This document shows, one piece after another, positions 6,152-29,058 of a DNA stretch of 64,000 bases. Within the stretch, counting starts at the first letter, position 1; every line of letters begins with the position of its first letter. The notes under the pieces are model-generated. The model did no database searches. It worked only from the letters and a program-made list of their open reading frames with translations, and had not been told where the DNA came from. The position numbers and the translations under genes were made by a program. Source of the DNA: Saccharopolyspora shandongensis (GTDB lineage: Bacteria > Actinomycetota > Actinomycetes > Mycobacteriales > Pseudonocardiaceae); NCBI RefSeq assembly GCF_900106995.1, contig NZ_FNOK01000029.1:1-64000 (forward strand). The letters run 5' to 3'.

Positions 6152-6631
6152 ATGACCCAGCACGACGCGTTCCACCCCGATCTGCCGACCCGGGTGTCCG
6201 AGGAGCAGCGCCGCTCGCTGCGCACCCGGCTGCACCACGTCCGGGCCGCCGATCTGGACAACAAGACGGCGCAGACGGAGGGCATGCGGCGGCTCGCGGC
6301 GATCAGCGGCGACCTGGTCGGCTCGGAGCGGATCTGGATGGGCGAGACGCACGTCGGCCCGTCGACGGCCTCGGACAACCACCACCACGGCGAGTCGGAG
6401 ACGGCGATCTACGTGGTCAGCGGCCACCCCGAGTTCGTCTTCCACGACGGCACCGAGGAGGTGCGGATCAAGACGGAACCGGGCGACTACATCTTCGTGC
6501 CGCCGTTCGTCCCGCACCGCGAGGAGAACCCGGACCCGAACGACCCGGCGGAGGTGGTGATCGCCCGCAGCACGCAGGAGGCGATCGTGGTCAACCTCCC
6601 CGAGCTCTACCACCTGGAGCAGGACCACTGA
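6152..6631 (+). CDS. Cupin-domain protein
   Basis: A 159-residue single-domain cupin. The first motif is represented by DNHHHGESETAIYVVSGHPEFV and the second by EPGDYIFVPPFVPHREENP, giving three to four His and Glu metal ligands. ATG 6152 is preceded by AAGGGAGAAGG. It is the last gene of the plus-strand unit and is followed by a strong stem-loop. Small cupins in such loci are often metal-dependent dioxygenases or isomerases acting on a small carboxylic intermediate; no specific reaction can be assigned. Confidence 0.75.
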   Translation: MTQHDAFHPDLPTRVSEEQRRSLRTRLHHVRAADLDNKTAQTEGMRRLAAISGDLVGSERIWMGETHVGPSTASDNHHHGESETAIYVVSGHPEFVFHDGTEEVRIKTEPGDYIFVPPFVPHREENPDPNDPAEVVIARSTQEAIVVNLPELYHLEQDH

Positions 6632-6853
6632 TCAGGTGAGCGGCGAAGGGGCTCTTTGAGCGCGCTCGGGGAACCTGGTCCGCGGGAACGGGTTCCCGGC
6701 GGCAGCCGGACCCGTTTCGGTCGGCCGGTCGTCGATCTGGAAGGTGGCGCTCATCGCTTCTCCGACCACTTGTCGACCGCCCCGCGCGGACGCCATCGGG
6801 GGCGGTGCGCGGCCCCGCTCGCTGATCCGGTTACGTCCTGGGGCACGCCACGA

Positions 6854-6887
6854 GGGACGTGTCCTCCTGCATCGGAGGGCACGTCCC
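6854..6887. terminator. Stem-loop terminator between convergent genes
   Basis: Arms GGGACGTG/CACGTCCC and CCTCC/GGAGG close a six-base loop. It lies in the 291-bp gap between the cupin (+) and the phospholipase D-like gene (-); nothing else is evident in that gap. Confidence 0.75.
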
Positions 6888-6922
6888 GCATCGTCCGGGG
6901 CGATCGCGTGACCGAGGCGGCC

Positions 6923-8149
6923 TCACTCGGCCAGTTCGGCGCTGCTGAACATCCGGTCGAAGGCGGCTGAGTACGCCGCGACCATGGCGGGCTGGTGCAA
7001 CGTGAGGGTGGCCTCGTCGTTGCGGCGCAGCGACGTATGCGTCCAGTTCTGGCTGCCGGTGCTCACCCAGCCGGCGGCAGCACCGCTGCGACCGTGGTCG
7101 ACCACGACGTACTTGGAGTGGACGGTGCCGGGCAGGGTCTCGTTCTTCAGCTTGCGGACCTCGATGGCGGGCGTGGCGTCGATCAGCGCCTGCCCCTTGG
7201 GTTCAAGGCTGCCGTGGACCATGCGGACCTGGCAACCGGCGTTGGACAGGCGGACCAGCTGTTCCACCGCGGCCAGGCGGGTGTCGTCGATCTCGGACAT
7301 CCCCACGCTGATCCGGGTGGCCGGCGTGCAGCGGACACGTGCGAGTTGCTCGGTGACGGGGTCCCCCTGGGGTACTGGCGAGAAGTACACGTCGACCGGG
7401 CCCTCGGGCATGCCGGTGTGGAAGGTCCCCATGGTGGCGGACGTGCGCTTCTCCGCAGCGAGTTCGGTGAAGTACCGGTCGTACACGCGGTAGAGCTGCG
7501 GGTTGTCCCGCAGAACGACGGCGTTGTTCCAGTAGGTCCGCGAGTTGACGTCGGTGAGGTTGGACGACGACTGCATCACCACGTTCCGCTGTCCTCCCGT
7601 CTCGGAGAAGAGCGCGAACTTGTTGTGGTTTCCCTTGGTGCCCAGGCAGGAGGAGGTGTTGCCCTCCGGCGAGATGTTGCTGCACACGTGGAGCCAGGAG
7701 AGCTGCTCCTGATCGGTGCCGAGTTCCGCCAGGATGGCCTGCGCCGGGGGTTTGTCGTCCTGCCAGCCGTCGAGCACCATTTGGATCTGGACGCCGCGAC
7801 GGTGGGCGTCGCTGAGCACCTCGGCGAAGTCGGCCCCCGCCTTGCCGCTCACCACGAAGTGGGCGATCCGGATCCGGGATCCGGCCGGTGCCTGCTTGAT
7901 GAGTGAGCACAGCCGGCTCATGATCGTCGCCGGTTCGCCGGCCGCAGGGTCGTTGAACACGGCCGTGGTTCGCACGGGTGCCTCTTCGGCGTTCGTGCAG
8001 GCCTTCATCGGGTCGTTCTCCACAGTGGCCGCAGGTGCGGTGAGCTGGGCCGGATCCGGGTTCGCTGCTGCGGTGGAGAAGCCCCCGATTCCAGTGGCGG
8101 CCGTGACGGCCAAACCGGTGGACAGGCAGAGCATTTTGATGCGTGACAC
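6923..8149 (-). CDS. Secreted phospholipase D-like protein
   Basis: A 408-residue protein with a Sec-type signal peptide (MSRIKMLCLSTGLAVTAATG followed by an Ala-rich cleavage region). Two HKD-like motifs are visible: GNHNKFALFSE with the following QSSSNLT, and TVHSKYVVVDHG with the following STGSQNWT, as expected for the two half-sites of the PLD superfamily. The start is GTG 8149 because GGGAGAA lies just upstream; an alternative upstream start at 8185 would place extra charged residues before the signal. It probably acts outside the cell on phosphodiester bonds of lipids or nucleic acids. It is transcribed alone, towards the terminator at 6854-6887. Confidence 0.85.
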   Translation of the reverse strand: MSRIKMLCLSTGLAVTAATGIGGFSTAAANPDPAQLTAPAATVENDPMKACTNAEEAPVRTTAVFNDPAAGEPATIMSRLCSLIKQAPAGSRIRIAHFVVSGKAGADFAEVLSDAHRRGVQIQMVLDGWQDDKPPAQAILAELGTDQEQLSWLHVCSNISPEGNTSSCLGTKGNHNKFALFSETGGQRNVVMQSSSNLTDVNSRTYWNNAVVLRDNPQLYRVYDRYFTELAAEKRTSATMGTFHTGMPEGPVDVYFSPVPQGDPVTEQLARVRCTPATRISVGMSEIDDTRLAAVEQLVRLSNAGCQVRMVHGSLEPKGQALIDATPAIEVRKLKNETLPGTVHSKYVVVDHGRSGAAAGWVSTGSQNWTHTSLRRNDEATLTLHQPAMVAAYSAAFDRMFSSAELAE

Positions 8150-8229
8150 GGGTTCTCCCTTGCGTGCGCAGGATAATGCGAGCAAAACATAAGGGCCACC
8201 GATGAATCCGAGTGGGCGTCAAGGTAGCC

Positions 8230-8272
8230 GATGGGCACTTTTCGTCAAGCTGGTTGGTGAAAAGTGCCCATC
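8230..8272. terminator. Perfect 14-bp stem-loop
   Basis: GATGGGCACTTTTC at 8230-8243 pairs exactly with GAAAAGTGCCCATC at 8259-8272. It lies just downstream of the minus-strand transporter stop at 8292 and upstream of the phospholipase D-like gene. Confidence 0.75.
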
Positions 8273-8291
8273 ACGCACCAGTAGTGAGTTC

Positions 8292-9587
8292 TCAGGCTTC
8301 GGCGTAGGAAGGATTTCCCTTGAACCGCAAGTGTTCCGGCTCCACGACCAGCAGAGCGCCGAGTGTGGAAAGCAGGCACAGCGCCGAACACAGAACGACG
8401 ATGCTCCAGTAACCGGCGGTCCACTCGCTCAGCTGCGCCGCGACGAACGGCAGGCAGCCGCCGACCACCGCGCCGACGAGTTCACGGCTGAAGGTGACTC
8501 CGGTGTAGCGGTACCGCACGTCGAAGAGTTCCGACAGCATCGTCGCCTGGGAGGCGAGGGTCAGGTCGTTGCAGAGCGTGAACACGAGGACGAAGGCGGC
8601 CCACACCAGTACCGGGGTGCCGGTGTCGAGCATGACGAAGAAGGGGTAGAACATCGCCGCGCCGGCGGCCGAGCCGGTGATCATCACCGGCCGCCGGCCG
8701 AACCGGTCGCACAGCCATCCCGCGGTGGGTACGGTCACCAGCTTGACCAGGTTGGCGATGACGATGCCGGTGAGCCCGATCCACGCCGGTGCGCCGACGT
8801 TCTTGGCCAGGTAGGTCAGCGCGTAGACCGACGGCACGTAGCTGATGACGTTCGGGGCGACGCTGATGAGCATGCCTGCGAAGACCTGACGGCGGGAGGT
8901 CGTCAGCAGGTCGCGCAGGGGCGTCCGGGAGACGCCGTTGTCCTCCTTGGCTTCGTGGAATTCGGGGCTGTCGGAGATCTTCAGGCGGATGAGCAGGCCG
9001 GCGACCCCGATGAAGCAGCTGATCAGGAAGGGAATCCGCCAGCCGAAGGAGAGGAACTGCTCTTCGGACATGACCGCGGCGGTCAGCCCGAAGGCGCCCG
9101 TGGCGATCAGCGCCCCGACCGCGTTGCCGAGCGTCGGAGCGCTGGCGTTCAGACCTCGTGAGCGGCGGTCGGCGTGCTCGGCCGACATCAGCATCGCGCC
9201 GGCGTATTCGCCGCCCGCGCCGATGCCTTGCAGGACGCGGAGGGCGATGAGCAGGATGGGCGCGGCGACGCCGATGCTCGCATAGCTGGGCAGGCAGCCG
9301 ATCAGCGTTGAGGAAATCGCCATCAGCACCAGCGTCAGGAACAGCATGGTCCGGCGGCCGATGCGGTCGCCCATGATGCCGATGAGCACGCCGCCGACGG
9401 GACGTGCGAGGAAGCCGACCGCGAAGGTCGCCAGCGAGGACAACGTGGCGGCGAAGCCGTCGCCCGCTGGGAAGAACACGGCCGGGAACACGAGTGCGGC
9501 GGCCGTGCCGTAGAGGGAGAAGTCGTACCACTCCAGAGCTGTGCCGATCGTGGAAGCGACCGTCGCTCGGCTGATTCTTCGTGCCAT
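8292..9587 (-). CDS. MFS transporter, metabolite:H+ symporter (MHS) type
   Basis: A 431-residue major facilitator with about twelve hydrophobic segments. The opening TIGTALEWYDFSLYGTAAAL and the loop motif GDRIGRRTMLFLTLVLM are characteristic of MHS symporters such as ShiA, ProP and KgtP. ATG 9587 has GAGGT about six bases upstream; GTG 9599 would be longer. It is divergent from the unknown operon beginning at 9744, and a LacI-type operator lies upstream of its start, so it probably imports the inducer or substrate of that locus under the LacI regulator at 11078. Confidence 0.87.
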   Translation of the reverse strand: MARRISRATVASTIGTALEWYDFSLYGTAAALVFPAVFFPAGDGFAATLSSLATFAVGFLARPVGGVLIGIMGDRIGRRTMLFLTLVLMAISSTLIGCLPSYASIGVAAPILLIALRVLQGIGAGGEYAGAMLMSAEHADRRSRGLNASAPTLGNAVGALIATGAFGLTAAVMSEEQFLSFGWRIPFLISCFIGVAGLLIRLKISDSPEFHEAKEDNGVSRTPLRDLLTTSRRQVFAGMLISVAPNVISYVPSVYALTYLAKNVGAPAWIGLTGIVIANLVKLVTVPTAGWLCDRFGRRPVMITGSAAGAAMFYPFFVMLDTGTPVLVWAAFVLVFTLCNDLTLASQATMLSELFDVRYRYTGVTFSRELVGAVVGGCLPFVAAQLSEWTAGYWSIVVLCSALCLLSTLGALLVVEPEHLRFKGNPSYAEA

Positions 9588-9618
9588 CGAGTACCTCACG
9601 TAGCGGAGCAGAAGAGCC

Positions 9619-9631
9619 CTAAACGTTCATG
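9619..9631. promoter_or_regulatory. LacI-type operator O1
   Basis: CTAAACGTTCATG contains the AACGTT centre, with the central CG step usual for LacI-family sites. It is 32 bp from the transporter start, where repressor would block the minus-strand promoter. It matches O2 at 9694-9707. Confidence 0.6.
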
Positions 9632-9693
9632 TTGATCGATGAGAGTACGGCTGGACATCCGGCAGAACAAGGGGTTAGCCTCTCGTTCATCGA

Positions 9694-9707
9694 CATGAAC
9701 GTTAATG
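9694..9707. promoter_or_regulatory. LacI-type operator O2
   Basis: CATGAACGTTAATG is a near-perfect palindrome about AACGTT, 37 bp upstream of the start at 9744. The flanks of O1 and O2 share GTTGAT-type sequence. The likely ligand is the LacI protein encoded downstream. Confidence 0.62.
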
Positions 9708-9743
9708 TTGATGGCCTCGAACACGACACGAGATGGAGATCAG

Positions 9744-10700
9744 ATGACCACCGCCTCAGTTCGGCGGGAGGGTGCCCAGCGCTCCTTTCCTCCTGGGCAC
9801 GACGTGGAGCTGTCCAAGTTCAACCCGCTGCCGCGCGTCCTCTGCTACGACAAGTTCGACTCGAGCACGCACGGGTGGACGGAGTTGCTCGGCAACTACG
9901 ACGGGACCGGTGATCTCGACACGGTCGACGACCACATGTGGGACTTCCGTCCGCCGCAGTTGTCCACGTGTTCGTTCTTCGACGTGGGTACGCACGGCAC
10001 TCTCAGCGGAGACTACGCACTCAAGCTCGCCACCCGCCCGCACAAGGGGCACACGGCTGTCGCCATCCGCCGGCTGACGATGGCCGGGCGGGGACTGGTG
10101 CAGATCGAGACCCACTTCGCGTTCAAGGCGGAGGCGAACGTCGGCGCGCCGCGGCAGTCGGCCCGGGCGGTGAGCTGGGACGGCAACCACCACCCCTCGG
10201 AGGCGGAGTTCGGCGCGTTCACCGTGGCGACCGACATCTGCGCCGACAACGGGGTGCGCTACCACAACGTCGCTCGTTACCAGAACACCAACATGGACAA
10301 CGAGATGACCCAGCGGTGGATGTACCCCACCGTGCCCGAGCCGACCCCGAGGGACCACTTCGAGGGCAAGTTCGCGCTGCCCTACGCCAGCGACTTCACC
10401 GCGCCGGACCCGAACGACTGGCGCACCTTCGGCGAGCCCCTCGACCTGTGCGTCAACGAGGTCCCGACCAAGATCAACTGGCACTACCTGCGCTGGCAGA
10501 TCGACACCGAGTCCAGGACGAACGTCGAACTGCAGATCAACGACAAGATCATGGACATGCGGGACGTCCCGGTCCCGGTGTACCCGGATCGGTACCGGAC
10601 GCTGGACAACCTGCTGAACTTCTACTTCTCCGTACGCACCCACGCCGATGTCCGGAACTTCCTGTTCCTCGACTCGGTCCTCATCTCGGTGGACTGGTGA
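9744..10700 (+). CDS. Uncharacterised 318-residue protein, beta-sandwich/lectin-like in appearance
   Basis: No family is recognised with certainty. There is no signal peptide. The pattern VLCYDKFDSSTHGWTELLGN, SGDYALKLATRPH and RGLVQIETHFAFKAE, together with alternating hydrophobic strands and a closing NFLFLDSVLISVDW, resembles concanavalin/laminin-G-like jelly rolls that bind carbohydrates. ATG 9744 has GGAG at 9735-9738. It is the first gene after operator O2, is followed two bases later by the next small gene, and then by a LacI regulator. Sugar or glycoside metabolism is suggested by the regulator and the divergent symporter only. Confidence 0.6.
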   Translation: MTTASVRREGAQRSFPPGHDVELSKFNPLPRVLCYDKFDSSTHGWTELLGNYDGTGDLDTVDDHMWDFRPPQLSTCSFFDVGTHGTLSGDYALKLATRPHKGHTAVAIRRLTMAGRGLVQIETHFAFKAEANVGAPRQSARAVSWDGNHHPSEAEFGAFTVATDICADNGVRYHNVARYQNTNMDNEMTQRWMYPTVPEPTPRDHFEGKFALPYASDFTAPDPNDWRTFGEPLDLCVNEVPTKINWHYLRWQIDTESRTNVELQINDKIMDMRDVPVPVYPDRYRTLDNLLNFYFSVRTHADVRNFLFLDSVLISVDW

Positions 10701-10701
10701 C

Positions 10702-11046
10702 ATGCTCTCGATGCGATCAACGACGACGGCGGTTCTGGAGCGCAAGGCCAAGGTGCGCACGTCGTTCACCACTGAGCCCTACGAACTGCCGTGGGCCGGC
10801 GAGGCCCGCTTCTTCGTCCACGCGCTGGAGTTCGACGGGGACGATACGAGTCTGGAGTTCATCACGCAGATCTCGCCGGACGGCTTGCACTGGTGCGATC
10901 TCGACGACGTGCGGCACCGGGTGGACTCGGTCGGTGTCACGAGCTGGCTGGTCACCGGGTTCGGGCAGTGGCTGCGGCTAAGCTGTCGAGTGACCGGTCC
11001 GGAGCCGGCCGCGACGGTGCGGATCTACCTGGTCGGCAAGAGCTGA
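10702..11046 (+). CDS. Uncharacterised 114-residue protein
   Basis: A small soluble protein rich in predicted beta strands (SLEFITQISPDGLHWCDLDDV, WLVTGFGQWLRLSCRVTG, AATVRIYLVGKS). It begins at ATG 10702 one base after the stop of the 318-residue protein, so the two are co-translated; ATG 10711 is an alternative start. No catalytic motif is visible. The constant pairing with the preceding protein and the LacI gene implies one function, possibly a two-part carbohydrate-binding or isomerase-like complex. This is a guess from context. Confidence 0.6.
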   Translation: MLSMRSTTTAVLERKAKVRTSFTTEPYELPWAGEARFFVHALEFDGDDTSLEFITQISPDGLHWCDLDDVRHRVDSVGVTSWLVTGFGQWLRLSCRVTGPEPAATVRIYLVGKS

Positions 11047-11077
11047 GCAGCTGGCTGGGTTTGGTGTAGGGGAGTTC

Positions 11078-12127
11078 ATGGTTCGTTCGCGGCGCGTGAC
11101 GCTTCAGGATGTTGCCGACAAGGTCGGTCTGTCGGTCAACACGGTCTCGCGCGCGCTCGCCGGCAAGAGCCAGGTGAGTGAGCAGACCCGCAACGCCATC
11201 CGGGCCGAAGCCAGCCGGCTCGGCTACGTCCCCAACAGCCAGGCCCGCTCGCTCGTGTCCGGCCGGACGATGGTCATCGGCCTGGTCATCACCAATCCCT
11301 CCAACCCGTTCTACGCCGCGTTGATCTCGGCCGTAGAGCAGCGCTGCCGCAGGTCCGGCTATTCGGTGCTGTTGTTGGTCACCGAGGAGTCGGAGGGGAA
11401 CGAGGAGGAGGCGGTCCAGCAGCTGCTGACCTACGGCGTCGATGGACTCATCGGGATTCCAGTGCAGGACAAGGGCGACAGCTGGTCCCGGCTGGCGGCC
11501 GCGAAGGTCCCCGTGGTCTTCGTCAGCCGGGACATCCCCGAGTTCGGCTTCGACTTCGTGGGCATCGACGCCGGAACCGGGATCGCCGATGCCGTCGAGC
11601 GCGTTTCCGGCGGGATCGCCCGGGCTTGGCTGTTCGAAGAGGATCTGCGGATCAGCACGACGGAGGCGCGGATCGCCGGGTTCCGGCGTGCGCTGGAATC
11701 CGCTGAGATCGATCAGCAGCGCTCGCTGGTGATCAAGGTGCAGACCCGGCGCACGGCGGGCGCGAGCCTGCCGTGGCGGCCGGACGACGCGTACCAGATG
11801 GCGGCGAACCTGATCACCGCGCAGAACTTCCCCGATCTCATCGTCGCGGGCAACGACTACTTCGCGCTCGGCATTCTCAAGGCGCTGCGGGAATGCGGCC
11901 TGACCGTGCCGGACGACGTGATGGTCGTGGGGTACGGCGACCACCCGTTCGCGGCGTACCTGGAGCCCGCTTTGACAACGCTCCGGCTGCCCGCCGAGGA
12001 AGTGGGTGCCACCGCCGTGGACTACCTGCTCGAACGCATCGCCGATCCGGCCGGACCGCGCAAGACCCGGTTGCTCAGCCCCGAGCTGGTGGAGCGAGGT
12101 TCAACCCGGCGTCCGCGGTCTGCTTAG
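11078..12127 (+). CDS. LacI-family transcriptional regulator
   Basis: A 349-residue repressor. The N-terminal helix-turn-helix reads VTLQDVADKVGLSVNTVSRA, followed by the hinge helix YVPNSQARSLVSGRT. The effector domain begins VIGLVITNPSNPFYAALISA and has the usual periplasmic-binding-like layout with GNDYFALGILKALRECGL and VVGYGDHPFAAYLEPALTT near the end. ATG 11078 follows GGGGAG. It lies 31 bp after the 114-residue protein gene and probably controls that operon and the divergent MHS transporter through the AACGTT operators at 9619-9631 and 9694-9707. Confidence 0.85.
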   Translation: MVRSRRVTLQDVADKVGLSVNTVSRALAGKSQVSEQTRNAIRAEASRLGYVPNSQARSLVSGRTMVIGLVITNPSNPFYAALISAVEQRCRRSGYSVLLLVTEESEGNEEEAVQQLLTYGVDGLIGIPVQDKGDSWSRLAAAKVPVVFVSRDIPEFGFDFVGIDAGTGIADAVERVSGGIARAWLFEEDLRISTTEARIAGFRRALESAEIDQQRSLVIKVQTRRTAGASLPWRPDDAYQMAANLITAQNFPDLIVAGNDYFALGILKALRECGLTVPDDVMVVGYGDHPFAAYLEPALTTLRLPAEEVGATAVDYLLERIADPAGPRKTRLLSPELVERGSTRRPRSA

Positions 12128-12170
12128 CTCCCGAGCCCTACCGCCTGGAGTCGGGGGAGAGCTGACGCGT

Positions 12171-12231
12171 GCGGGTGGTCGTGGCCGGCCCCGACCACCC
12201 GCTCCTGGCCGACCACGCGGTGTGGTCGGCC
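12171..12231. terminator. Tandem stem-loops after the LacI gene
   Basis: Hairpin one pairs GCGGGTGGTCG (12171-12181) with CGACCACCCGC (12192-12202). Hairpin two pairs GGCCGACCAC (12207-12216) with GTGGTCGGCC (12222-12231). They occupy the first part of the 330-bp gap 12128-12457 and should isolate the next operon. Confidence 0.65.
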
Positions 12232-12329
12232 GATGTGGAACGAGGTCGCGTTCGGCGCGAGTCGTCACGTGCGGTGGCCGACCGTTCCTTTTCTGGTGCA
12301 AACACGGGGTTTTCCCGGTCAATCGGGCA

Positions 12330-12457: not shown

Positions 12458-12859
12458 ATGAGCGCGCAGAAGACCAACGAACTTTCGGAACTGCTGGAGC
12501 GGCTCGACAAGCAGTCTTCCGACCTGTGGAAGCGAGTCGTGCTGGAAGGGCGGCCGGTGAGCCGCGATGACGGCAACATCCACCTCGCGATCGAATCGGG
12601 TGTCGTCGCCATCCCGGTAAAGGAGATCGAGGAGCTCCACCCGATCTTCGGCAGGGCGGAGGCGGTGACGGTCGTGGTCCGCAACGCCGACCACATCGAA
12701 TACCTGCGTCGAACGGAGGATTTCGCGCAGGACGCCGCCGTCGCCGCGAGCGACTCCGACGGCGTGGTGCTGCGGGCGATGCGCTGCGGCGACACCGCGA
12801 CCTGCACGTCCGCGCAGGGGTATGACGCCACCGACGACTACTGCTGCAGGCCGATGTGA
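12458..12859 (+). CDS. Candidate RiPP (graspetide-type) precursor with Cys/Thr/Asp-rich tail
   Basis: A 133-residue protein. Residues 1-96 look like a folded leader: a helical start (ELSELLERLDKQSSDLWKRV), then a small alpha/beta segment IHLAIESGVVAIPVKEIEEL and TVVVRNADHIEYLRR. Residues 97-107 are a short linker, and residues 108-133 form a core-like tail RCGDTATCTSAQGYDATDDY ending CCRPM, with four Cys (110, 116, 129, 130), three Thr, one Ser and four Asp, and no Lys. Mixed hydroxyl and carboxylate residues are what graspetide ligases join as esters or amides. ATG 12458 follows AGGGGG. The gene overlaps the next by 4 bp and an ATP-grasp ligase follows. Family membership is inference from tail and context; the leader is longer than in most described graspetides. 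Confidence 0.6.
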   Translation: MSAQKTNELSELLERLDKQSSDLWKRVVLEGRPVSRDDGNIHLAIESGVVAIPVKEIEELHPIFGRAEAVTVVVRNADHIEYLRRTEDFAQDAAVAASDSDGVVLRAMRCGDTATCTSAQGYDATDDYCCRPM

Positions 12860-13266
12860 ACTCGCGGTCTCCGCTCCGGCGGTGGCTCGAACGCGTGCCG
12901 CGCGCGGACCGGCGAACGTCGTGCCGGCTGGACGGAATCCTGCTCGGCGCACCGTCCGGGATGCTGCGGATCGTGGTCGGAGACCTGTGCCTGGACCTGG
13001 ATCCGGACGATCTGGTTGCCATCGCGGAAGTTCCGGCTCCCGGCGAGCCCTCGCCGCGCTTCGGCATCCGCGTGCGGCTCGAACTCCGCCGCGGTGCCGG
13101 GCTGTGGGGGGTGTCGCCGGGCGCGGCCTACCTCAACTGGTTGTTCCCGCCGCGCCGGCCGTTCGCCATCGCCTGCCGGACCTCGGTCGACGAGGTGCCG
13201 GCAGACCGATTCCGTGCCCAGGAAAAGGAATTCCTCCGGCGGCACGGGCTGGATCCGCCCCGGTGA
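12856..13266 (+). CDS. Uncharacterised small protein in ATP-grasp cassette
   Basis: A 136-residue soluble protein of unknown family, starting at GTG 12856 inside the stop region of the precursor-like gene and ending in a GTGA overlap with the ligase gene. Residues 36-80 (MLRIVVGDLCLDLDPDDLVA then FGIRVRLELRR) have the same strand and turn pattern as residues 40-85 of the precursor-like protein, so the two may share a small domain. An aromatic/Pro-rich segment AAYLNWLFPPRRPFAIACRT and a basic C-terminus follow. It could be a leader-recognition or scaffold subunit, or an additional peptide substrate with an unusual fold. No enzyme motif is visible. Confidence 0.6.
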   Translation: MNSRSPLRRWLERVPRADRRTSCRLDGILLGAPSGMLRIVVGDLCLDLDPDDLVAIAEVPAPGEPSPRFGIRVRLELRRGAGLWGVSPGAAYLNWLFPPRRPFAIACRTSVDEVPADRFRAQEKEFLRRHGLDPPR

Positions 13267-14207
13267 TCCTCGTCGTTTCCAGTCCGCACGACGTGCACGC
13301 GCGCGTGGTCGCGGATCGCCTCCGGCGGCGCGGGAAGCCGGTGGCGATCCTCGACATGAGCACTCTCGCGGCGGACGAATTCCTCTCGTATCCGATAGGC
13401 CGCGCGGGGATCGCCCCGCGCATCACCGCCGCCGATGGGCGCGTGGTCGATTTCGGGGCCGTCGAGGCGATTTGGTACCGGCGGTTCCACGAGGTCGCCA
13501 TTCCGCCGGACGTCGGCGACGCGGACGACCGGGCGTTCGTGCGGCACGAGTGGCAGGACGCCCTCAACGGCATCTTCCTCGGCCTGAAGTGCCGCAGCAT
13601 CAACCCACTACTGGGGCAGCTCGCCGCGACGAAACCCCGTCAGCTGGAACTGGCGCGGCGAACGGGTCTCCGCGTTCCCGAAACGCTGATCACCAACGAT
13701 CCGGATCGTCTCGAAGGCTTCCTCGAACGCCACCGCGGGCGGGTCGTGCACAAGGCCATGAGCGCCCCCGCGAACCACTTCGTCGACACCCGGCGCTGGG
13801 CTGACGCGGACCGAACGGCGCTGCCCGATCTCCCGCTCGCGCCGACGATCTTCCAGGAGGAGATCACCGGCCCCAGCGACGTGCGCGTCACCGTGGTCGG
13901 CGGCCAGGTCTTCGCCGCGCGCATCGACACGGCCGAGGGACGATCGGACCTGGACTCCCGGCTCGACCTGGACGCTCCGTGCCACCCGCACGCGTTGCCG
14001 CCGGAAGTGCGCGAACGGCTGCTCGGCCTGATGCGCGCGCTCGGCCTCCGCTTCGGCACCGTCGACCTGAAGATCACCGAGCAGGGCGAGCACGTCTTCT
14101 TCGAGGTGAACCCGCAGGGCCAGTTCCTCTACATCGAGATCCTGACGGGGCTGGGGATCAGCGCCGCGATGGCCGGGCTCCTCGCCGGCGACCAGCGCCG
14201 CTCCTGA
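13263..14207 (+). CDS. ATP-grasp ligase, MvdC/MvdD (graspetide maturase) like
   Basis: A 314-residue ATP-grasp enzyme. The N-terminal preATP-grasp part ends with AIWYRRFHE, the analogue of the W-x-R-R motif of MvdC/MvdD-type ligases. It is followed by SINPLLGQLAATKPRQLELA and GLRVPETLITNDP, typical of peptide-maturing ATP-grasp proteins. The nucleotide-site Lys is in RVVHKAMSAP; the metal ligands are in FGTVDLKI and VFFEVNPQGQFLYIEI. These enzymes phosphorylate Asp/Glu side chains of a precursor and form macrolactones or macrolactams with Ser/Thr/Lys. The GTG start overlaps the stop of the previous gene by four bases. No protease, transporter, acetyltransferase or methyltransferase lies adjacent. 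Confidence 0.78.
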   Translation: MILVVSSPHDVHARVVADRLRRRGKPVAILDMSTLAADEFLSYPIGRAGIAPRITAADGRVVDFGAVEAIWYRRFHEVAIPPDVGDADDRAFVRHEWQDALNGIFLGLKCRSINPLLGQLAATKPRQLELARRTGLRVPETLITNDPDRLEGFLERHRGRVVHKAMSAPANHFVDTRRWADADRTALPDLPLAPTIFQEEITGPSDVRVTVVGGQVFAARIDTAEGRSDLDSRLDLDAPCHPHALPPEVRERLLGLMRALGLRFGTVDLKITEQGEHVFFEVNPQGQFLYIEILTGLGISAAMAGLLAGDQRRS

Positions 14208-14330
14208 TCCGCCGGGAAGTCCCGGTGTTGACACCCGCCTGGTTCTTCACGAGGCTGGACGCCAGGAACCGACTGGTCGGTATGCATCGGTGCGGTCCGG
14301 CAGGCGCAGTGCGGCGCGGAGGAGGCGTGG

Positions 14331-17300
14331 ATGGGCATCGGGGAGCCGTTCGGGACGTTGCTGGTCGCGAACCGGGGCGAGATCGCGTTGCGGGTCTTCC
14401 GCGCCGCCGCGGTGCTGGGCGTCGGCACGGTCGGCGTGCACGCGGCGGATGACGCCGACTCGCTGCACGTGGCCCGCTGCGACGAGGCCGTGCCGCTGCC
14501 CCAGAACGGCGCCGCCGCGTACCTCGACGTCGCCGCGATCATCGAAGCGGCCCGCAAGACCGGCGCCCAGGCCATCCACCCCGGATACGGGTTCCTCTCG
14601 GAGAACCCCGCCCTGGCCAGGGCCTGCGCCGACGCGGGCATCGCCTTCGTCGGCCCGGACCCGAGCGCGCTGGAACTCTTCGGCGACAAGGCGAAAGCCC
14701 GCGCGCTCGCCACCGAACTGGAGATCCCGACGCTGCCCGGCACGGCGGTGGCGACGCTCGCCGGCATGGAACGCTTCCTGGACACCCTCGAACCGGACCT
14801 CTCGCGCGGGCGCGGCGCGGCGGTGATCAAGGCCGTCGCCGGTGGCGGCGGCCGGGGCATGCGCGTGGTGCGCGGCCGGGACGAGCTCGCCGAGGCGTTC
14901 CGGGCCTGCGAGGCCGAGGCGCTCGCCGCGTTCGGCTCCGGTGACCTCTACATCGAACGGCTGCTCACCGACGCCCGGCACATCGAGGTCCAGGTGATCG
15001 GCGACGGCCAGGCAGTCGCGCACCTCTGGGACCGCGACTGCAGCGTGCAGCGGCGGCACCAGAAGCTGATCGAGGTCGCGCCCGCCCAGGGGCTCGACCA
15101 GCGGCTGCGGCAGGACGTGCTGCAGGCCGCGACCCGGCTGGTCGGCGCTGCCGCCTACCGGGGCGTGGCGACCGTGGAATTCCTGGTCAGCGGCCAGGAG
15201 TTCTTCTTCATGGAGGTCAACCCGCGGCTCCAGGTGGAGCACACCGTCACCGAGGAGGTGCTCGGCCTGGACCTGGTGCGCAGCCAGCTGGAGATCGCCG
15301 CCGGCGCGAGCCTCGCCGACCTCGGTCTCGACCAGGATCGGGTGCCGTGCCCGCGCGGCAGCGCGATCCAGATCCGGATCAACGCCGAGACGATGACCGC
15401 CGACGGGCAGGTCCTGCCGCAGTCGGGCGTGCTCGATCGGTTCGCGATGCCCGCGGGGCGCGGCATCCGCGTCGACACGGCCGGCTATCCGGGATACCGC
15501 ACCAACCCGGGTTTCGACTCCCTGCTAGCCAAGATCGTGGTGCACGACGCGGCGGGATTCACGGCGGCCCGCAGGCTGGCGGTCCAGGCGCTCGACGAGC
15601 TGCAGATCACCGGGGTCGCCACGAACCTCCCGCTGCAGCAGGCGATCCTGCGCACCGACGAGTTCGCCGCCGGGCGCTGCGCGACGTCCTATGTGGATAA
15701 CCACCGCGCCGAGCTCTTGGAAGCCGCGCCGAACGCCGTGCCGGACGCGCCCCTCGGCGCCACCGTCGCGCCGATGAGCGGCTCGGTCGTCGCGGTGGAG
15801 GTGTCGCTCGGCGACGTGGTCGCGCGCGGGCAGGTCGTGATGGTGCTGGAAGCGATGAAGATGCAGCACGTCATCCGCGCGGACAGCGGTGGTGAGGTGA
15901 CGCAGATCCGCTTCCGGGAAGGCGACGTGGTCGACGCCGGGGAACCGGTGGTGATCGTCTCCGGCAACGACGGGCCAGGCCTCGCCGATCTCGCGGACGA
16001 GCGCATCGACCCCGACCACATCCGGCCGGACCTGGCCCGCGTGCTGGAGCGCAAGAGCCTGTGGGCCGACGAGAACCGGCCCGAAGCGGTGCAAAAACGC
16101 CACTCGCGGGGCATGCGCACCGCGCGCGAGAACGTGACCGACCTGGTCGACGAAGGCACGTTCACCGAGTACGGCGGCTTCGCCATCGCCGCGCAGCGCA
16201 AGCGCCGCGAGCTCGACGACCTGCTGCGCAACACACCCGCCGACGGCATGATAACCGGCGTCGGCCAGGTCAACGGCGCGCAGTTCGGGCCGGAGCGCAG
16301 CACCTGCGCGGTGCTCGCCTACGACTACACCGTGCTGGCGGGCACGCAGGGCTACTTCAACCACCGCAAGACCGACCGGATCCTGGAGGTCGCGCGGCAG
16401 CAGCAGTACCCGGTGGTGCTGTTCGCCGAGGGCGGCGGCGGCCGGCCGGGCGACGTCGACATCCCCAAGGGCGGCGGGCTGATCACCCCGTCGTTCCTGG
16501 CGCTGGGCGAGCTCAGCGGCCGGGTTCCGACGATCGGCATCGCGGCGGGCCGCTGCTACGCGGGCAACGCCGCGCTGCTGGGCACCTGCGACGTGGTGAT
16601 CGCGACCCGCGACGCCAACATCGGCATGGGCGGCCCGGCGATGATCGAGGGCGGCGGGCTCGGCGTGTTCGCCCCCGAGGAGATCGGCCCGATCGACGTG
16701 CAGACGGCCAACGGCGTGGTCGACGTGGCGGTCGAGGACGAGGCCGAAGCGGTCGCGGTGGCCAAGCGCTACCTGTCCTACTTCCAGGGCGATGTCACCG
16801 ACTACTCCGAGCCGGACCAGCGCGGACTGCGCCACGTGGTGCCGGAGAACCGCAAGCGCGCCTACGACGTGCACACCGCGATCGACGTCCTCTGCGACGA
16901 GGGCTCGGTGCTGGAGCTGCGGCCGGAGTTCGGTCGCTGCACGATCACCGCGCTGGTGCGCATCGCGGGCCGGCCGATGGGGCTCATCGCGAACAACCCG
17001 ATGGTGCTCGGCGGCGCGATCGACGCCGACGGCGCCGACAAGCTGGCGCGGATGCTGCAACTGTGCGAGGTGTTCGGGCTGCCGGTGGTTTCGCTCTGCG
17101 ACACACCGGGATTCATGGTCGGCCCGGAGTCGGAGAAGACGGCGACGGTGCGGCACTTCGGCCGGATGTTCGTGCACGGCGCGCGCCTGACCGTGCCGAT
17201 GGCGACGGTGGTGCTGCGCAAGAGCTACGGTCTCGGCGCGATGGCCATGGCCGGCGGCACGATGGTGAAACCGGCGTTGACGGTCGCGTGGCCGAGCGGC

Positions 17301-17576
17301 GAGGTCGGCGGCATGGGCCTGGAAGGCGCGGTGCGCCTGGGCTTCCGCCGCGAGCTGGAGGCGATCGCCGACCCGTCGCAGCGCCGGCGGCGCTACGACG
17401 AGCTGGTGGCCCAGATGTACGAAACGGGCAGCGCGATCAACACGGCGATGCACCTGGAGATCGACGACGTCGTCGACCCGGCCGACACCCGGGATCTCCT
17501 GCTGCGAGCCCTCCCGCCGGTAGCGCGAACGGGCTGGACCAACCCCCGAGCGCGAGCCGTCATCGACGCCTGGTAG
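14331..17576 (+). CDS. Single-chain biotin-dependent acyl-CoA carboxylase (long-chain type)
   Basis: A 1081-residue multidomain enzyme: biotin carboxylase about 1-450 (GGGGRGMRVV glycine loop, SVQRRHQKLIE, EVNPRLQVEH), a biotin carboxyl carrier domain about 475-545 with EAMKMQ and biotinyl Lys510, and carboxyltransferase about 570-1081 with AYDYTVLAGTQGYFNHRKTD, SLCDTPGFMVG and GAMAMAGGTMVKP. Domain order and length match the single-chain long-chain acyl-CoA carboxylases known from mycobacteria, which accept acyl-CoAs of varied chain length. ATG 14331 follows GGAGGAGGCG. It is transcribed alone, after a 123-bp gap, and is followed by a palindromic element. Exact acyl-CoA preference cannot be read from the sequence. 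Confidence 0.9.
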   Translation: MGIGEPFGTLLVANRGEIALRVFRAAAVLGVGTVGVHAADDADSLHVARCDEAVPLPQNGAAAYLDVAAIIEAARKTGAQAIHPGYGFLSENPALARACADAGIAFVGPDPSALELFGDKAKARALATELEIPTLPGTAVATLAGMERFLDTLEPDLSRGRGAAVIKAVAGGGGRGMRVVRGRDELAEAFRACEAEALAAFGSGDLYIERLLTDARHIEVQVIGDGQAVAHLWDRDCSVQRRHQKLIEVAPAQGLDQRLRQDVLQAATRLVGAAAYRGVATVEFLVSGQEFFFMEVNPRLQVEHTVTEEVLGLDLVRSQLEIAAGASLADLGLDQDRVPCPRGSAIQIRINAETMTADGQVLPQSGVLDRFAMPAGRGIRVDTAGYPGYRTNPGFDSLLAKIVVHDAAGFTAARRLAVQALDELQITGVATNLPLQQAILRTDEFAAGRCATSYVDNHRAELLEAAPNAVPDAPLGATVAPMSGSVVAVEVSLGDVVARGQVVMVLEAMKMQHVIRADSGGEVTQIRFREGDVVDAGEPVVIVSGNDGPGLADLADERIDPDHIRPDLARVLERKSLWADENRPEAVQKRHSRGMRTARENVTDLVDEGTFTEYGGFAIAAQRKRRELDDLLRNTPADGMITGVGQVNGAQFGPERSTCAVLAYDYTVLAGTQGYFNHRKTDRILEVARQQQYPVVLFAEGGGGRPGDVDIPKGGGLITPSFLALGELSGRVPTIGIAAGRCYAGNAALLGTCDVVIATRDANIGMGGPAMIEGGGLGVFAPEEIGPIDVQTANGVVDVAVEDEAEAVAVAKRYLSYFQGDVTDYSEPDQRGLRHVVPENRKRAYDVHTAIDVLCDEGSVLELRPEFGRCTITALVRIAGRPMGLIANNPMVLGGAIDADGADKLARMLQLCEVFGLPVVSLCDTPGFMVGPESEKTATVRHFGRMFVHGARLTVPMATVVLRKSYGLGAMAMAGGTMVKPALTVAWPSGEVGGMGLEGAVRLGFRRELEAIADPSQRRRRYDELVAQMYETGSAINTAMHLEIDDVVDPADTRDLLLRALPPVARTGWTNPRARAVIDAW

Positions 17577-17589
17577 CGGCTGCTCAGGG

Positions 17590-17640
17590 CCCGTGCGTAC
17601 TTTGTGCTGTTATAGCAACAGAAAGTACGCACGGGGCCTG
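17590..17640. repeat. 51-bp extragenic palindromic element, copy 2 (probable terminator)
   Basis: CCCGTGCGTACTTT (17590-17603) pairs perfectly with AAAGTACGCACGGG (17622-17635) around CTGTTATAGCAACAG. It aligns without gaps to 374-424. It lies between the carboxylase stop and the convergent 68-residue gene. Confidence 0.8.
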
Positions 17641-17675
17641 GCCTGGCCGAACAGGTCCAAGACCGTAGCCTTCGG

Positions 17676-17882
17676 CTACTGCTCCTCTTGAGCCCTGAGT
17701 TCACGGAGCTCCCGAAGGGCGTCGGTCGCCCTGGCGACGAGCTTTGCGAGTCCTGCCTCGGTGGTGAAGAGATCGAAGCCGGACTGACCGCCGATCTCGA
17801 ACTCGACCTCGTCCTGGCAGACCGTATAGCTGATCGAGCACTCGTCCATGCTGACCCAGGTGCCGACCTTGGTTCCGCCCAT
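17676..17882 (-). CDS. Small protein of unknown function divergent from XRE regulator
   Basis: A 68-residue acidic protein (MGGTKVGTWVSMDECSISYT, then a Glu-rich middle and a helical, charged C-terminus ALRELRELRAQEEQ). ATG 17882 is preceded by GAAGGAG. No domain is recognised. Small proteins of this sort often accompany XRE/DUF397 pairs in actinomycetes; here it is divergently transcribed from that pair across about 200 bp. It may be a partner of the regulator, but no function can be assigned. Confidence 0.6.
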   Translation of the reverse strand: MGGTKVGTWVSMDECSISYTVCQDEVEFEIGGQSGFDLFTTEAGLAKLVARATDALRELRELRAQEEQ

Positions 17883-18086
17883 GCTCGCTCCTTCGCTTCC
17901 GTGGGTCGCTGACACAGCCGCGACCTGGCCTTGTATCGTCGAGCCCTGCTTTGACCGGCGGCCTCGACCTTGCCTTTGAAATCAAACAGTTCGGGATCAA
18001 TACAGGCAACGCGACGCGGCGTCCCGTTCGGGTGATCTGTCAGCGCAAGGCTGCTGATGCTCGCTGCCGTGTCCAGGAGGAGCAAA

Positions 18087-18980
18087 GTGATCACATCATC
18101 CCCGGCGGTCGTCCGGTACTACCTCGCGCTGCGGCTGTCCCAACTGCGTGCGGAATCGGGATTGACCAAGCAGCAGGCGGGAAAGCGGATCGGCCGTACC
18201 GGGCAGACCATCGCCAACCTGGAGAAGGGCCTCCACGCACCGACGCAATCCGATCTTGAGAAACTCCTGGAGCATTACGGCGCGGCGGAACAGATCCCGG
18301 AGCTGCGAGACCTGCTCCCGGTTGCGCGCAAGCGCACGCCGAAGCGCGCGGCACCGATCCCGGAGGACTACGACCTCCGGTTGAACCTCGAAATCGACAT
18401 GGCCCGACTCGACATCGTGGAAACCTCGCTGGTGCCAGGACTTCTGCAGACGCCGAAATATGCAGCGGCGGTGTTTCGGGCGGACCCGAATCACTCAGAT
18501 GCCGAGATTCAACAGCTCGTTGATGCTCGGATGGAGCGCAAGCAGGTCTTCATGCGGGCAGAACGTCCGGCCGAACTGCACGTGGTCCTCGACGAAAGTG
18601 TGCTGTACCGGGTGCGCGGAGGAAATGGTGTGATGCGCGAACAGCTCGACTACCTCCAGGAGGTTGCTCGGACTTCCACCGTCGATCTGCAAGTCTTGCC
18701 GCTCGATGCAGGGGCCTTCCGCGGGCAGGGCAAGTCGTGGACGCTGATGACTTTCCCGGAATCGTTGCAGGAACATCCCGGCATGGTGTGTCTGGACCTG
18801 TTGGAGGAGTCCAGGTACGTGGATGATGTGACTCTGGTCGACCTGTACCGCCGGACCTGGCGGCACGTTCTCGGCGCAGCGGCGTCGATTGACCGTTCGT
18901 TGCAACTGATTCGCAAGGCAAGGAAAGAATGCGGTGGGGACTGTGAAGAACTTGGCCGGATGGAGGAAATCCAGTCGTAG
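18087..18980 (+). CDS. XRE-family regulator with DUF5753 domain
   Basis: A 297-residue protein. The helix-turn-helix spans about residues 14-60 (LSQLRAESGLTKQQAGKRIG and QTIANLEKGLHAPTQSDLEK). The long C-terminal DUF5753 part has VPGLLQTPKYAAAVFRAD and RKQVFMRAERPAELHVVLDE, as in WhiJ-like regulators of actinomycetes. GTG 18087 is chosen for the AGGAGG six bases upstream over ATG 18057. Its 3' end overlaps the DUF397 gene by 47 bp in another frame. Such pairs influence development and antibiotic production in Streptomyces; a role here is inferred from that family only. Confidence 0.85.
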   Translation: MITSSPAVVRYYLALRLSQLRAESGLTKQQAGKRIGRTGQTIANLEKGLHAPTQSDLEKLLEHYGAAEQIPELRDLLPVARKRTPKRAAPIPEDYDLRLNLEIDMARLDIVETSLVPGLLQTPKYAAAVFRADPNHSDAEIQQLVDARMERKQVFMRAERPAELHVVLDESVLYRVRGGNGVMREQLDYLQEVARTSTVDLQVLPLDAGAFRGQGKSWTLMTFPESLQEHPGMVCLDLLEESRYVDDVTLVDLYRRTWRHVLGAAASIDRSLQLIRKARKECGGDCEELGRMEEIQS

Positions 18981-19137
18981 CGACGAAAAGCGTGACTGCG
19001 TCGAGGTCGGGTTCGCACCTGGGATCGTCGGGGTCCGAGACACCAAGGATCGCGAAGGCGGAACATTAGCCTTCAACCGGTCCGCCTGGCGCGCCTTCAC
19101 CGGCGGGCTTCACTCCGGTGCGTTCGACGTGCGTTGA
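18934..19137 (+). CDS. DUF397 protein
   Basis: A 67-residue protein with the DUF397 core WRKSSRSDEKRDCVEVGF, then GIVGVRDTKDREGGTLAFNRSAWRAF. It begins inside the XRE gene (GTG 18934, or GTG 18943 giving MKNLAGWRKSSRS), so translation is coupled. DUF397 proteins are the usual small partners of XRE/DUF5753 regulators and are thought to modulate them. A bidirectional stem-loop follows at 19142-19192. Confidence 0.85.
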   Translation: MGTVKNLAGWRKSSRSDEKRDCVEVGFAPGIVGVRDTKDREGGTLAFNRSAWRAFTGGLHSGAFDVR

Positions 19138-19141
19138 CGTG

Positions 19142-19192
19142 AGGTGAAGGGCGTCTTGTGTCGAATTACTCGACCAAAGATGCCCTTCACCT
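19142..19192. terminator. Bidirectional stem-loop
   Basis: AGGTGAAGGGC (19142-19152) pairs with GCCCTTCACCT (19182-19192), with further pairing inside. It sits between the convergent DUF397 and biotin-carrier genes. Confidence 0.75.
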
Positions 19193-19197
19193 GCAGC

Positions 19198-19413
19198 TCA
19201 CTTGTCGGAGACGACGGCGATGAGGTCGCCTTCGTTGACCGCGTCGCCTTCGGCGACCGCCAGGCGGGTCACCACGCCGTCGGTTTCGCTGAGCACCGGG
19301 ATCTCCATCTTCATCGACTCCAGGACCGCCAGCTCCTGGTCGGCCTTGACCGCCGTGCCCTCGGTCACCAGCACCTTCCAGACGTTGGCGACCATTTCCG
19401 CCTTGATCTCCAT
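19198..19413 (-). CDS. Biotin carboxyl carrier protein
   Basis: A stand-alone 71-residue biotinyl domain with the attachment motif ESMKMEI; Lys35 should carry biotin. It is the last gene of a nine-gene minus-strand operon and follows the biotin carboxylase gene by 15 bp. It shuttles carboxybiotin between the carboxylase encoded at 19429 and the carboxyltransferase at 21940. In most actinobacterial acyl-CoA carboxylases the carrier is fused to the carboxylase subunit, so the split form is notable. Confidence 0.9.
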   Translation of the reverse strand: MEIKAEMVANVWKVLVTEGTAVKADQELAVLESMKMEIPVLSETDGVVTRLAVAEGDAVNEGDLIAVVSDK

Positions 19414-19428
19414 GTTGTTCCCTTCCCG

Positions 19429-20751
19429 TCAGCGGGCGGCGATGATCCGGTCGACCACGCCGGTGTCGTAGTTCCCGGCGGCGAACTCCGGGGCGTCCAG
19501 CACTTCGGCCAGGAACGGCAGGTTGCACTTCGGGCCCTGCACGACGAACTCCGCGACCGCCCGCCGCGCCCGGGCCAGGGCGTCCGCGCGGTCGGCGCCG
19601 TGCACCACGATCTTCGCCAGCAGCGGGTCGAAGTGCGGGCTCACCTCGGTGCCGGCCGCGTAGCCCGACTCGACCCGCACCCCGGCCGGCTCGGCCCACC
19701 CGGTGATCCGCCCGGGCCGGGGCAGGAAGCGGACCGGGTCCTCCGCGTAGACCCGCAGCTCGACGGCATGCCCGCGCGGCGCGGGGAAGTCCGCCGGGAC
19801 GTCCGCTCCCGCGGCGATCCGCAGCTGCAGCTCCACCAGGTCGATGCCGTGCACCTCCTCGGTGATCGGGTGCTCCACCTGCAGCCTGGTGTTCACCTCC
19901 AGGAAGAAGAACTCCCCGGTGCCGGGATCGAGCAGGAACTCCACGGTGCCCACGTTGCGGTACCCGACGCTCTCGGCCGCCCGAACCGCAGCCGCGCACA
20001 GCCGGGAGCGCAGCGCGGCATCCACGGCCGGGGAAGGGCATTCCTCCACGACCTTCTGGTGCCGCCGCTGCACCGAGCAGTCCCGCTCGCCGAACGTGCG
20101 CACCGAGCCGTCGGGCATGCCGACGACCTGCACCTCCACGTGCCGGGCGCGCGGCACGTACCGCTCCAGCAGGATCCGGGCGTCGCCGAACGCGCTGCCG
20201 CCCCGCGACAGCGCGGTCCGCACCGCGCGTTCCAGGGACTCGGCATCGCGAGCGATGCCCATCCCGATGCCGCCGCCACCGGAAACCGCCTTGACCATCA
20301 GCGGAAAACCCAGCTCCGAGGCCGCGGCGTCGGCCTCGGCGGCCGACGCGATCCCGGAGCTGCCCGGCAGCACCGGAACCCCGGCCGACGCCATGTGCGC
20401 CCGCGCCGCAGCCTTGTCGGCCAGCAGCTCCATCGCCTTCGGCGACGGACCGACCCAGACCAGGCCCGCTGCCGCGCAGCGGCGGGCGAAATCCGGATTC
20501 TCCGACAAGAACCCGTAGCCCGGATGCACCGCCGTCGCCCCGGTCTTCCGCGCCACCGCGAGGATCGCCTCCGCCGAGAGGAAGTCGCGCGGCGAGTCCA
20601 GCGGGACCGCCTCGTCGGCTTCGGCGACGTAGGGCAGCCCGGTGTCCACTTCGGAATGGATCGCGATGGTCCGCACCCCGAGCCGGCGGGCGGTCCGGAT
20701 GATCCGCCGCGCGATCTCGCCCCTGTTGGCCACCAGCAGGCCGTCGATCAC
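19429..20751 (-). CDS. Biotin carboxylase subunit of acyl-CoA carboxylase
   Basis: A 440-residue biotin carboxylase: N-terminal LLVANRGEIARRIIRTAR, ATP-grasp loop SGGGGIGMGIA, ERDCSVQRRHQKVVEE, FLEVNTRLQVEH and the C-terminal DPLLAKIVVHG. It lacks a biotinyl domain, which is encoded separately downstream. GTG 20751 overlaps the stop of the CoA-transferase gene by four bases. It carboxylates the biotin of the carrier with bicarbonate and ATP. The upstream frame remains open but encodes the CoA-transferase in a different phase. Confidence 0.88.
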   Translation of the reverse strand: MIDGLLVANRGEIARRIIRTARRLGVRTIAIHSEVDTGLPYVAEADEAVPLDSPRDFLSAEAILAVARKTGATAVHPGYGFLSENPDFARRCAAAGLVWVGPSPKAMELLADKAAARAHMASAGVPVLPGSSGIASAAEADAAASELGFPLMVKAVSGGGGIGMGIARDAESLERAVRTALSRGGSAFGDARILLERYVPRARHVEVQVVGMPDGSVRTFGERDCSVQRRHQKVVEECPSPAVDAALRSRLCAAAVRAAESVGYRNVGTVEFLLDPGTGEFFFLEVNTRLQVEHPITEEVHGIDLVELQLRIAAGADVPADFPAPRGHAVELRVYAEDPVRFLPRPGRITGWAEPAGVRVESGYAAGTEVSPHFDPLLAKIVVHGADRADALARARRAVAEFVVQGPKCNLPFLAEVLDAPEFAAGNYDTGVVDRIIAAR

Positions 20752-21935: not shown

Positions 21936-21939
21936 CGCG

Positions 21940-23472: not shown

Positions 23473-23553
23473 TGTCCCTCCAAAGTGGTCACGGGGGTCG
23501 GTCGGTGTAGGCGCGTCAGCGCGCACCCGGTGCGGCACGCGGGCCGGGGGAGA

Positions 23554-23617: not shown

Positions 23618-23691
23618 AACTCGCGAGCGGGCATGTGGACGGGCGGACGGCGTGGTGTCGGGAGCCTTGCGCGACGCATTCGGGTTAGCTC

Positions 23692-24549: not shown

Positions 24550-24553
24550 GGCA

Positions 24554-29026: not shown

Positions 29027-29058
29027 CGCTGGCCTCCCGAGGGTGTGTGACGCCGGGC

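Follow-up and report, generated by a model that had tools for sequence, protein, structure and literature searches.

A graspetide-like gene cassette of Saccharopolyspora shandongensis with a folded-leader precursor candidate and a core-less homologue of that leader

Background

In the current picture of graspetide enzymes, the guide is a short leader peptide fused to the core. In the microviridin and plesiocin types, these leaders are short peptides with a PFFARFL-type helix.

Several published observations bear on the role of the leader. A leader motif, Phhx(1,2)h, is reported in about half of graspetide precursors and is thought to activate the synthetase (PMC8939145). Added leader peptide was reported to act in trans in vitro on microviridin-type synthetases (PMC5934393). 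In the rosaritide system (MirA/MirB/MirC, group 21), the TIGR04187-type synthetase needs, and co-purifies with, a separate co-encoded protein, MirC, which is roughly 315 residues long and contains a SurA-like domain (TIGR04500); a PCAT transporter is present (PMC13097080).

We analyzed three coupled genes in a window of 64,000 nucleotides (the whole stretch of DNA considered here) from a host genome of 10.15 Mb. The reading that we favour, and consider fairly probable, is that of a graspetide-like cassette in which gene 1 is a substrate with a folded leader and a core, and gene 2 is a core-less copy of the leader that stays with the synthetase encoded by gene 3.

Results and discussion

The cassette and its surroundings

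The original prediction had described a trio of genes coupled by 4-bp overlaps. Both overlaps are present (GTGA at 12856-12859 and 13263-13266) and all frames and lengths agree. The features are distributed as follows, in window positions:

12458..12859, plus strand: gene 1, 133 aa; precursor candidate with an N-terminal helix, a folded leader domain, a linker and a C-terminal core-like tail
12536..12712, plus strand: gene 1 residues 27-85; leader domain with six predicted strands, a homologue of gene 2
12779..12856, plus strand: gene 1 residues 108-133; core-like tail, modelled at a pLDDT under 50
12856..13266, plus strand: gene 2, 136 aa; core-less leader homologue, proposed trans-acting leader or partner of the synthetase
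13153..13182, plus strand: gene 2 residues 100-109 (RRPFAIACRT); candidate leader motif (Pro-Phe-hydrophobic), suggestive only
13263..14207, plus strand: gene 3, 314 aa; graspetide-synthetase-type ATP-grasp ligase
13878..13886, plus strand: gene 3 D206-V-R208; position of the graspetide synthetase 'DFR' motif

A LacI-type regulator and a biotin-dependent carboxylase are encoded right next to the trio; as had been noted, no protease or transporter directly adjoins it. For transporters this holds for adjacent genes, but an MFS-like ORF (8292-9599, recognized by eye) lies 2.9 kb upstream on the opposite strand, in a stretch that gives no alignment to the S. spinosa region. Beyond the carboxylase, and not adjoining the cassette, an HTH-DUF5753 and DUF397 gene pair is present at 18057-19137. 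According to PMC13097080, gene pairs of this kind accompany graspetide groups 11 and 13.

Among 150 genomes the only other carrier of the trio is S. spinosa NRRL 18395, of the same genus, where the trio sits between collinear blocks. Protein identity to this copy is 80% for gene 1, 78% for gene 2 and 78% for gene 3. At the DNA level, identity is 89-93% in the larger aligned blocks, 84-89% in short pieces and 79% in the cassette. Two regions of the window are mostly absent at the matching S. spinosa place: 6618-12252 upstream of the cassette (about 5.6 kb against about 0.1 kb) and 14198-30252 downstream of it (about 16 kb against about 1.9 kb). What aligns in the downstream region is limited to short pieces of the gene for the 1081-aa biotin carboxylase-carboxyltransferase (14331-17576).

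The synthetase

Judged by profiles, matches to solved structures and the tree described below, gene 3 is a graspetide-synthetase-type ATP-grasp. The W-x-R-R-like and NPxxxxQLA-type blocks claimed for it are found as 'WYRR' and 'NPLLGQLA'. In Pfam it matches PF21068 (MvdD pre-ATP-grasp, 28.2 bits for a cut-off of 27) and PF08443 (RimK, 27.1 for a cut-off of 21). The best NCBIfam model is TIGR04187 (GRASP_SAV_5884), with 213.1 bits over residues 2-307, under its cut-off of 350; TIGR04185 (150 of 425) and TIGR04184 (148 of 475) are also under their curated cut-offs, and the MvdC and MvdD models match below cut-off. Six solved graspetide-type ligases match gene 3 at E values of 9e-30 to 1e-16 (the match to 9bou spans residues 2-308, and those to some of the others no more than the last four fifths), and RimK types at 2e-5 and worse. 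A profile of four relatives reaches 4e-48 with 5ig8 and 2e-45 with 9bou, with the D-x-R and E-V-N-P blocks aligned. D206 and R208 are invariant in the 4 aligned synthetases, and D206-V-R208 aligns with D-I-R of 9bou and E-L-R of 5ig8, at the place named the 'DFR motif' in PMC13097080. By profiles and solved structures, gene 3 groups with peptide maturases and not with amino-acid ligases; the latter clustering would have spoken against the original prediction.

Relatives and phylogeny

Relatives were considered among the best 80 of 448 confirmed loci (numbered L044-L123), obtained from 584 stretches by a scan of genome contigs. The whole trio recurs in two Nitrospira-type MAGs (L045 and L046), whose ATP-grasp is 49-50% identical and whose gene 1 encodes 162 aa with a Ser/Thr/Asp-rich tail. 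In a Burkholderiales MAG (L047), gene 2 and the ATP-grasp are still present; the place of gene 1 is occupied by an unrelated, core-bearing ORF of up to 80 aa, without the folded domain, that ends in a T/S-rich and then D-rich stretch. Among the best 80 of 448 loci, all 52 Nocardia loci have a one-piece domain-core protein before the ATP-grasp, 139-184 aa long by script-chosen starts (the Nocardia count refers to L044-L123 only, and these loci lie among L055-L122). Its tail is conserved, ending in CDSLD, CDSID or CDNLD in 46 of the 52 and in SDSFD in the other 6. In 5 of the 52 the tail is shortened (ending TFTFRDGINCDSLD), and the core-like stretch carries an internal deletion of natural origin. 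A protein similar to the Nocardia type is intact in Halobacillus L072; in Halobacillus halophilus the domain-core gene is interrupted, in two fragments (L054:4440-4976). The HMM search found no separate gene 2 in the Nocardia and Halobacillus loci.

A tree was built with IQ-TREE on 49 rows: 35 of the 80 loci (all 28 non-Nocardia loci and 7 of the 52 Nocardia loci), the window, and 13 of 20 outgroup rows, the other 7 having been left out as a motif filter missed them. One clade (95/93) unites the synthetases of the window and S. spinosa with those of L047 and of both Nitrospira-type MAGs, and its five members are exactly the loci where gene 2 was found, in each of them directly upstream of the ATP-grasp with a 4-bp overlap. 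The sequences tie gene 2 to this synthetase clade. Next to it lies the deltaproteobacterial L050 (94/91), in which no gene 2 was seen on a contig that begins 605 bases before the ATP-grasp, so that a gene 2 further upstream would be missed. Together with Nocardia, Halobacillus and two alphaproteobacterial loci, the clade and L050 make up a less well supported group (90/89), beside which lies a 19-row group (95/89) where 10 of 11 scanned upstream proteins have a peptidase domain. The 13 actinobacterial outgroup synthetases lie apart (100/100). The distribution over Actinomycetota, Nitrospirota and Pseudomonadota suggests horizontal transfer.

The trio is rare, which counts against our best explanation. 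Gene 1 was found in 2 of 150 relatives and in 1 of 245 genomes of the Nitrospira-type phylum. Strong gene 2 matches were found in 2 of 150, 2 of 397, 1 of 398, 1 of 296 and 1 of 148 genomes, in sets that overlap and include known carriers.

A side group of loci has large proteins just upstream of the ATP-grasp (L048, L049, L052, L057, L058, L060, L064, L067, L068, L081, L090, L100, L106, L111 and L123). By eye, these 15 proteins contain Lys/Thr/Asp/Glu-rich repeats or stretches and a PFVLATPH-like motif, mostly near the C-terminus. The pattern is present in 15 of the 10,412 ORF fragments of the best 80 of 448 loci, each ORF ending 0-113 bases before the ATP-grasp. The 11 proteins scanned for domains comprise 10 of these 15 and that of L070: astacin was found in 6, a trypsin-like peptidase in 3 and M43 in 1, and no peptidase domain in L049. 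Since the PFVLATPH-like motif resembles the graspetide leader motif, these proteins may represent substrates that are linked to a protease and carry a natural follower. A follower made by engineering is described in PMC13003496, and peptidase-rich ATP-grasp branches, 7 and 8, without predicted precursors are reported in PMC8939145.

The tail of gene 1

The gene 1 frame is real, the S. spinosa copy being 80% identical across it. As claimed, its product has 133 aa and a 26-residue tail rich in Thr, Asp and Cys; these last 26 residues hold 12 Thr, Asp or Cys, including four Cys (C110, C116, C129 and C130). At least 12 such residues are present in the last 26 of 2 among 216 window ORFs of at least 100 aa, gene 1 included, and 12 are reached by 24 of the 60,302 26-aa stretches of the same ORFs. 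Searches against Pfam and NCBIfam, NHLP/Nif11 long-leader models included, gave 0 families for gene 1 at E 1 or better.

Donors (S/T/K) and acceptors (D/E) in the C-terminal tail of a precursor adjacent to a synthetase are a graspetide trait. Here the candidate donors are T113, T115, T117, S118 and T125 and the candidate acceptors D112, D123, D126 and D127, among which T115, S118, D123, T125, D126 and D127 are kept in all 4 aligned gene-1 sequences. Homologues of gene 1 devoid of the tail, which would have argued against the original prediction, were not encountered: a Thr/Ser/Asp tail is present in all 3 homologues found (S. spinosa L044, and L045 and L046 of the Nitrospira type). The tail is a plausible graspetide core. 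That it is the core of a RiPP locus is supported by its retention and by the synthetase family; the cross-linking itself we infer.

The tail had also been described as variable, which does not agree with the comparison of the two Saccharopolyspora copies, where it is conserved: 4 of 27 aligned positions differ, and one of the four Cys stands elsewhere, at residue 116 in the window but at the position of residue 122 in S. spinosa. At the codon level, the 27 aligned codons of the tail show 4 amino-acid changes against 7 synonymous-only codons, the 20 codons of the linker 7 against 3, and the 86 codons of the helix and domain 16 against 22. The tail Cys are probably not required for the chemistry, because there are four in both Saccharopolyspora tails and one in the Nitrospira-type tail.

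Gene 2 and the leader of gene 1

The extra small protein of the original prediction is indeed present; what is new is its relation to gene 1. Sequence comparison by hhalign shows that the folded leader of gene 1 and gene 2 are homologous: the gene-1 family (4 sequences) and the gene-2 family (5 sequences) align with a score of 35.6 (E 2.8e-5), and 100 column-shuffled control alignments have a mean of 11.7 and a maximum of 17.3, none reaching 35.6. Gene 2 is related at a similar level to the Nocardia proteins (35.7, E 2.3e-5, control maximum 19.2, 0 of 100), as are the Nocardia proteins to those of Halobacillus (36.2, E 2.5e-5, control maximum 20.5, 0 of 100). The match between gene 1 and Nocardia is weaker (21.2, E 0.011, control maximum 19.5, 0 of 100), and gene 2 against Halobacillus scores 20.1 for a control maximum of 17.5. 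For gene 1 and Halobacillus there is no significant match (E 0.12, reached by 10 of 100 controls).

Profile searches of the 10,412 ORF fragments from the best 80 of 448 loci gave a consistent distribution. At E 0.01 the gene-2 HMM found its own 4 members and 7 Nocardia fragments only (1.7e-4 to 3.9e-3), all 7 just upstream of an ATP-grasp. The Halobacillus profile matched 12 Nocardia fragments and the L054 fragments, and the Nocardia profile all 52 Nocardia loci and L072 (0.0088). Gene 2 gave 0 NCBIfam families at E 1 and so no match to the MirC-type TIGR04500.

The AlphaFold2 model of gene 2, from an alignment of 26 sequences of which 4 are gene-1 rows, has a mean pLDDT of 77.8, with 10-residue means of 81-93 over residues 21-90. 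The predicted order is a helix, six strands, a helix, a loose stretch (97-115) and a C-terminal helix. In this make-up (folded domain, Pro-hydrophobic stretch, helix) gene 2 resembles a Nocardia-type protein minus the core. The gene 1 model is of low confidence (2 sequences; the top one of five models has a mean pLDDT of 58.2, the other four 35-40) and predicts, in one of the five, the same helix and six strands, followed by the tail below pLDDT 50. Structure comparison matched no known fold.

The leader motif was examined with a PSSM built from the protease-fusion group and scored against 2000 shuffles, a poor instrument as two canonical precursors fail it too (1743 and 1819 shuffles reaching their best site). 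P102 and F103 are invariant in the 5 gene-2 sequences and lie in the low-confidence loop of the gene 2 model. In gene 2 the best site falls where it should for the window (63 of 2000), S. spinosa (114) and L047 (196), and so it does in the Nocardia proteins of L055 (80) and L087 (328). The PSSM fails for the Nitrospira gene 2 (764 of 2000) and for Halobacillus (1409), and in L050 its best site (267) differs from the site picked by eye. In gene 1 of the window no leader-motif site was found by this PSSM, which also misses canonical precursors (best gene 1 site reached by 1931 of 2000). In all 52 Nocardia proteins, among the best 80 of 448 loci, the matching part contains RP[LMI]T[LI]. The resemblance of the invariant Pro-Phe of gene 2 to the graspetide leader motif is a lead and only suggestive.

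Proposed mechanism and alternatives

Under the favoured reading, gene 1 would be the substrate, with its helix and folded leader domain, linker and 26-residue core tail. Gene 3 would use ATP to activate Asp side chains of the tail and join them to Thr/Ser side chains as esters, with a loss of 18 Da per ring. Gene 2, as the core-less copy of the leader domain that stays with the synthetase, probably binds gene 3, perhaps the leader domain of gene 1 too, and would present the substrate or activate the enzyme in trans. The product would keep its folded domain or be cut by a protease encoded elsewhere. The chemistry, the complex of the three proteins, the trans activation and the role of the product are all our interpretation. 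The idea that gene 2 is probably a paralogous, trans-acting leader partner draws mainly on the paralogy of gene 1 and gene 2 and on L047, the one case in which the precursor has changed and gene 2 has remained with the synthetase.

A more specific scheme, which we put forward tentatively, is a natural split precursor. An ancestral protein with domain, motif, helix and core, as in Nocardia, would have been duplicated, gene 2 losing the core and gene 1 the motif; modification would then need both domains to meet on the synthetase, and gene 2 could serve unrelated precursors, as in the Burkholderiales locus.

Less probable than the favoured reading is that gene 2 acts as a chaperone-type partner that folds or stabilises gene 3, a partner such as MirC is for MirB in rosaritide. 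Leader recognition would then be the task of gene 1 alone, through its N-terminal LxxLL-type helix and its folded domain, and the paralogy would be a matter of history, not mechanism. Partner-dependent graspetide synthetases exist (PMC13097080), but gene 2 is outside the MirC family according to NCBIfam at E 1. Gene 1 retains its own folded domain, as this explanation would have it, and an N-terminal L-x-x-[LIW]-L is present in all 6 sequences examined (genes 1 and 2 from the window and from L045, and the precursors of L047 and L050); against this, L047 keeps gene 2 though its precursor is without the domain, and the domain of Nocardia and Halobacillus has the core-like tail, not the ligase, as its fusion partner.

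It is improbable that the ligase cross-links the gene 1 tail to gene 2, to another protein or to a second gene 1 instead of forming rings within the tail. The tail holds both donors and acceptors, like ordinary graspetide cores, and the same protein pair is absent from Nocardia and L047-type loci, although the homologous gene 1 and gene 2 could assemble, cross-linking of assembled protein chains has been reported for ThfB, a graspetide synthetase (PMC12291112), and the lack of a directly adjacent protease or transporter would also fit. Least probable is a different peptide ligase, for example one that adds amino acids to the tail, in a cassette that is not graspetide-like: the scores under the curated cut-offs of TIGR04187, TIGR04185 and TIGR04184 would allow it, but solved graspetide-type ligases outscore RimK types and the D-x-R and E-V-N-P blocks are retained.

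If the favoured reading of gene 2 as a leader copy staying with the synthetase is true, the guide can be a separate, reusable protein subunit, the question of which leader part activates the ligase becomes directly testable, and the cassette is a possible tool to modify peptides without a leader. Such an arrangement also suggests that, in several phyla, the tails of folded proteins serve as substrates of graspetide-type enzymes.

Comparison with known systems

In the literature searched, as far as its partial texts go, we found no folded-domain leader that has a core-less homologue lying between the genes for precursor and ligase. Gene 3 shares with the rosaritide synthetase its TIGR04187 type. 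Unlike MirC, gene 2 has 136 aa, no NCBIfam match and homology to the precursor's own leader, and no PCAT transporter adjoins the cassette.

The LPL proteins of Bacteroidetes (branch 5, PMC8939145) are, like gene 2, small and co-encoded; they carry a motif likened to the leader motif, with precursors that have none, and their interaction with the ATP-grasp was raised as a possibility. They sit directly upstream of a SPASM enzyme, their likeness to gene 2 is by description only, and the available account does not mention homology to the precursor leader, which gene 2 has. Proteusins (NHLP leaders, PMC10858898) are likewise RiPP precursors with a long, structured leader, whose structured part was reported to be dispensable in the proteusin studied. 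The proteusin leader belongs to another HMM family, and gene 1 has no NCBIfam match at E 1.

The one-piece proteins of Nocardia and Halobacillus have, as here, a related domain, a core-like tail and a graspetide-type ATP-grasp next door; they differ in keeping domain and tail on one chain, with no separate gene 2 found. With the microviridin and plesiocin type (MdnC, PsnB) the cassette shares a homologous ATP-grasp, a core of Thr/Ser and Asp/Glu and, in the proposed scheme, an activating N-terminal leader; here, by contrast, the leader is a predicted folded domain, and a core-less copy of it is encoded as a separate gene.
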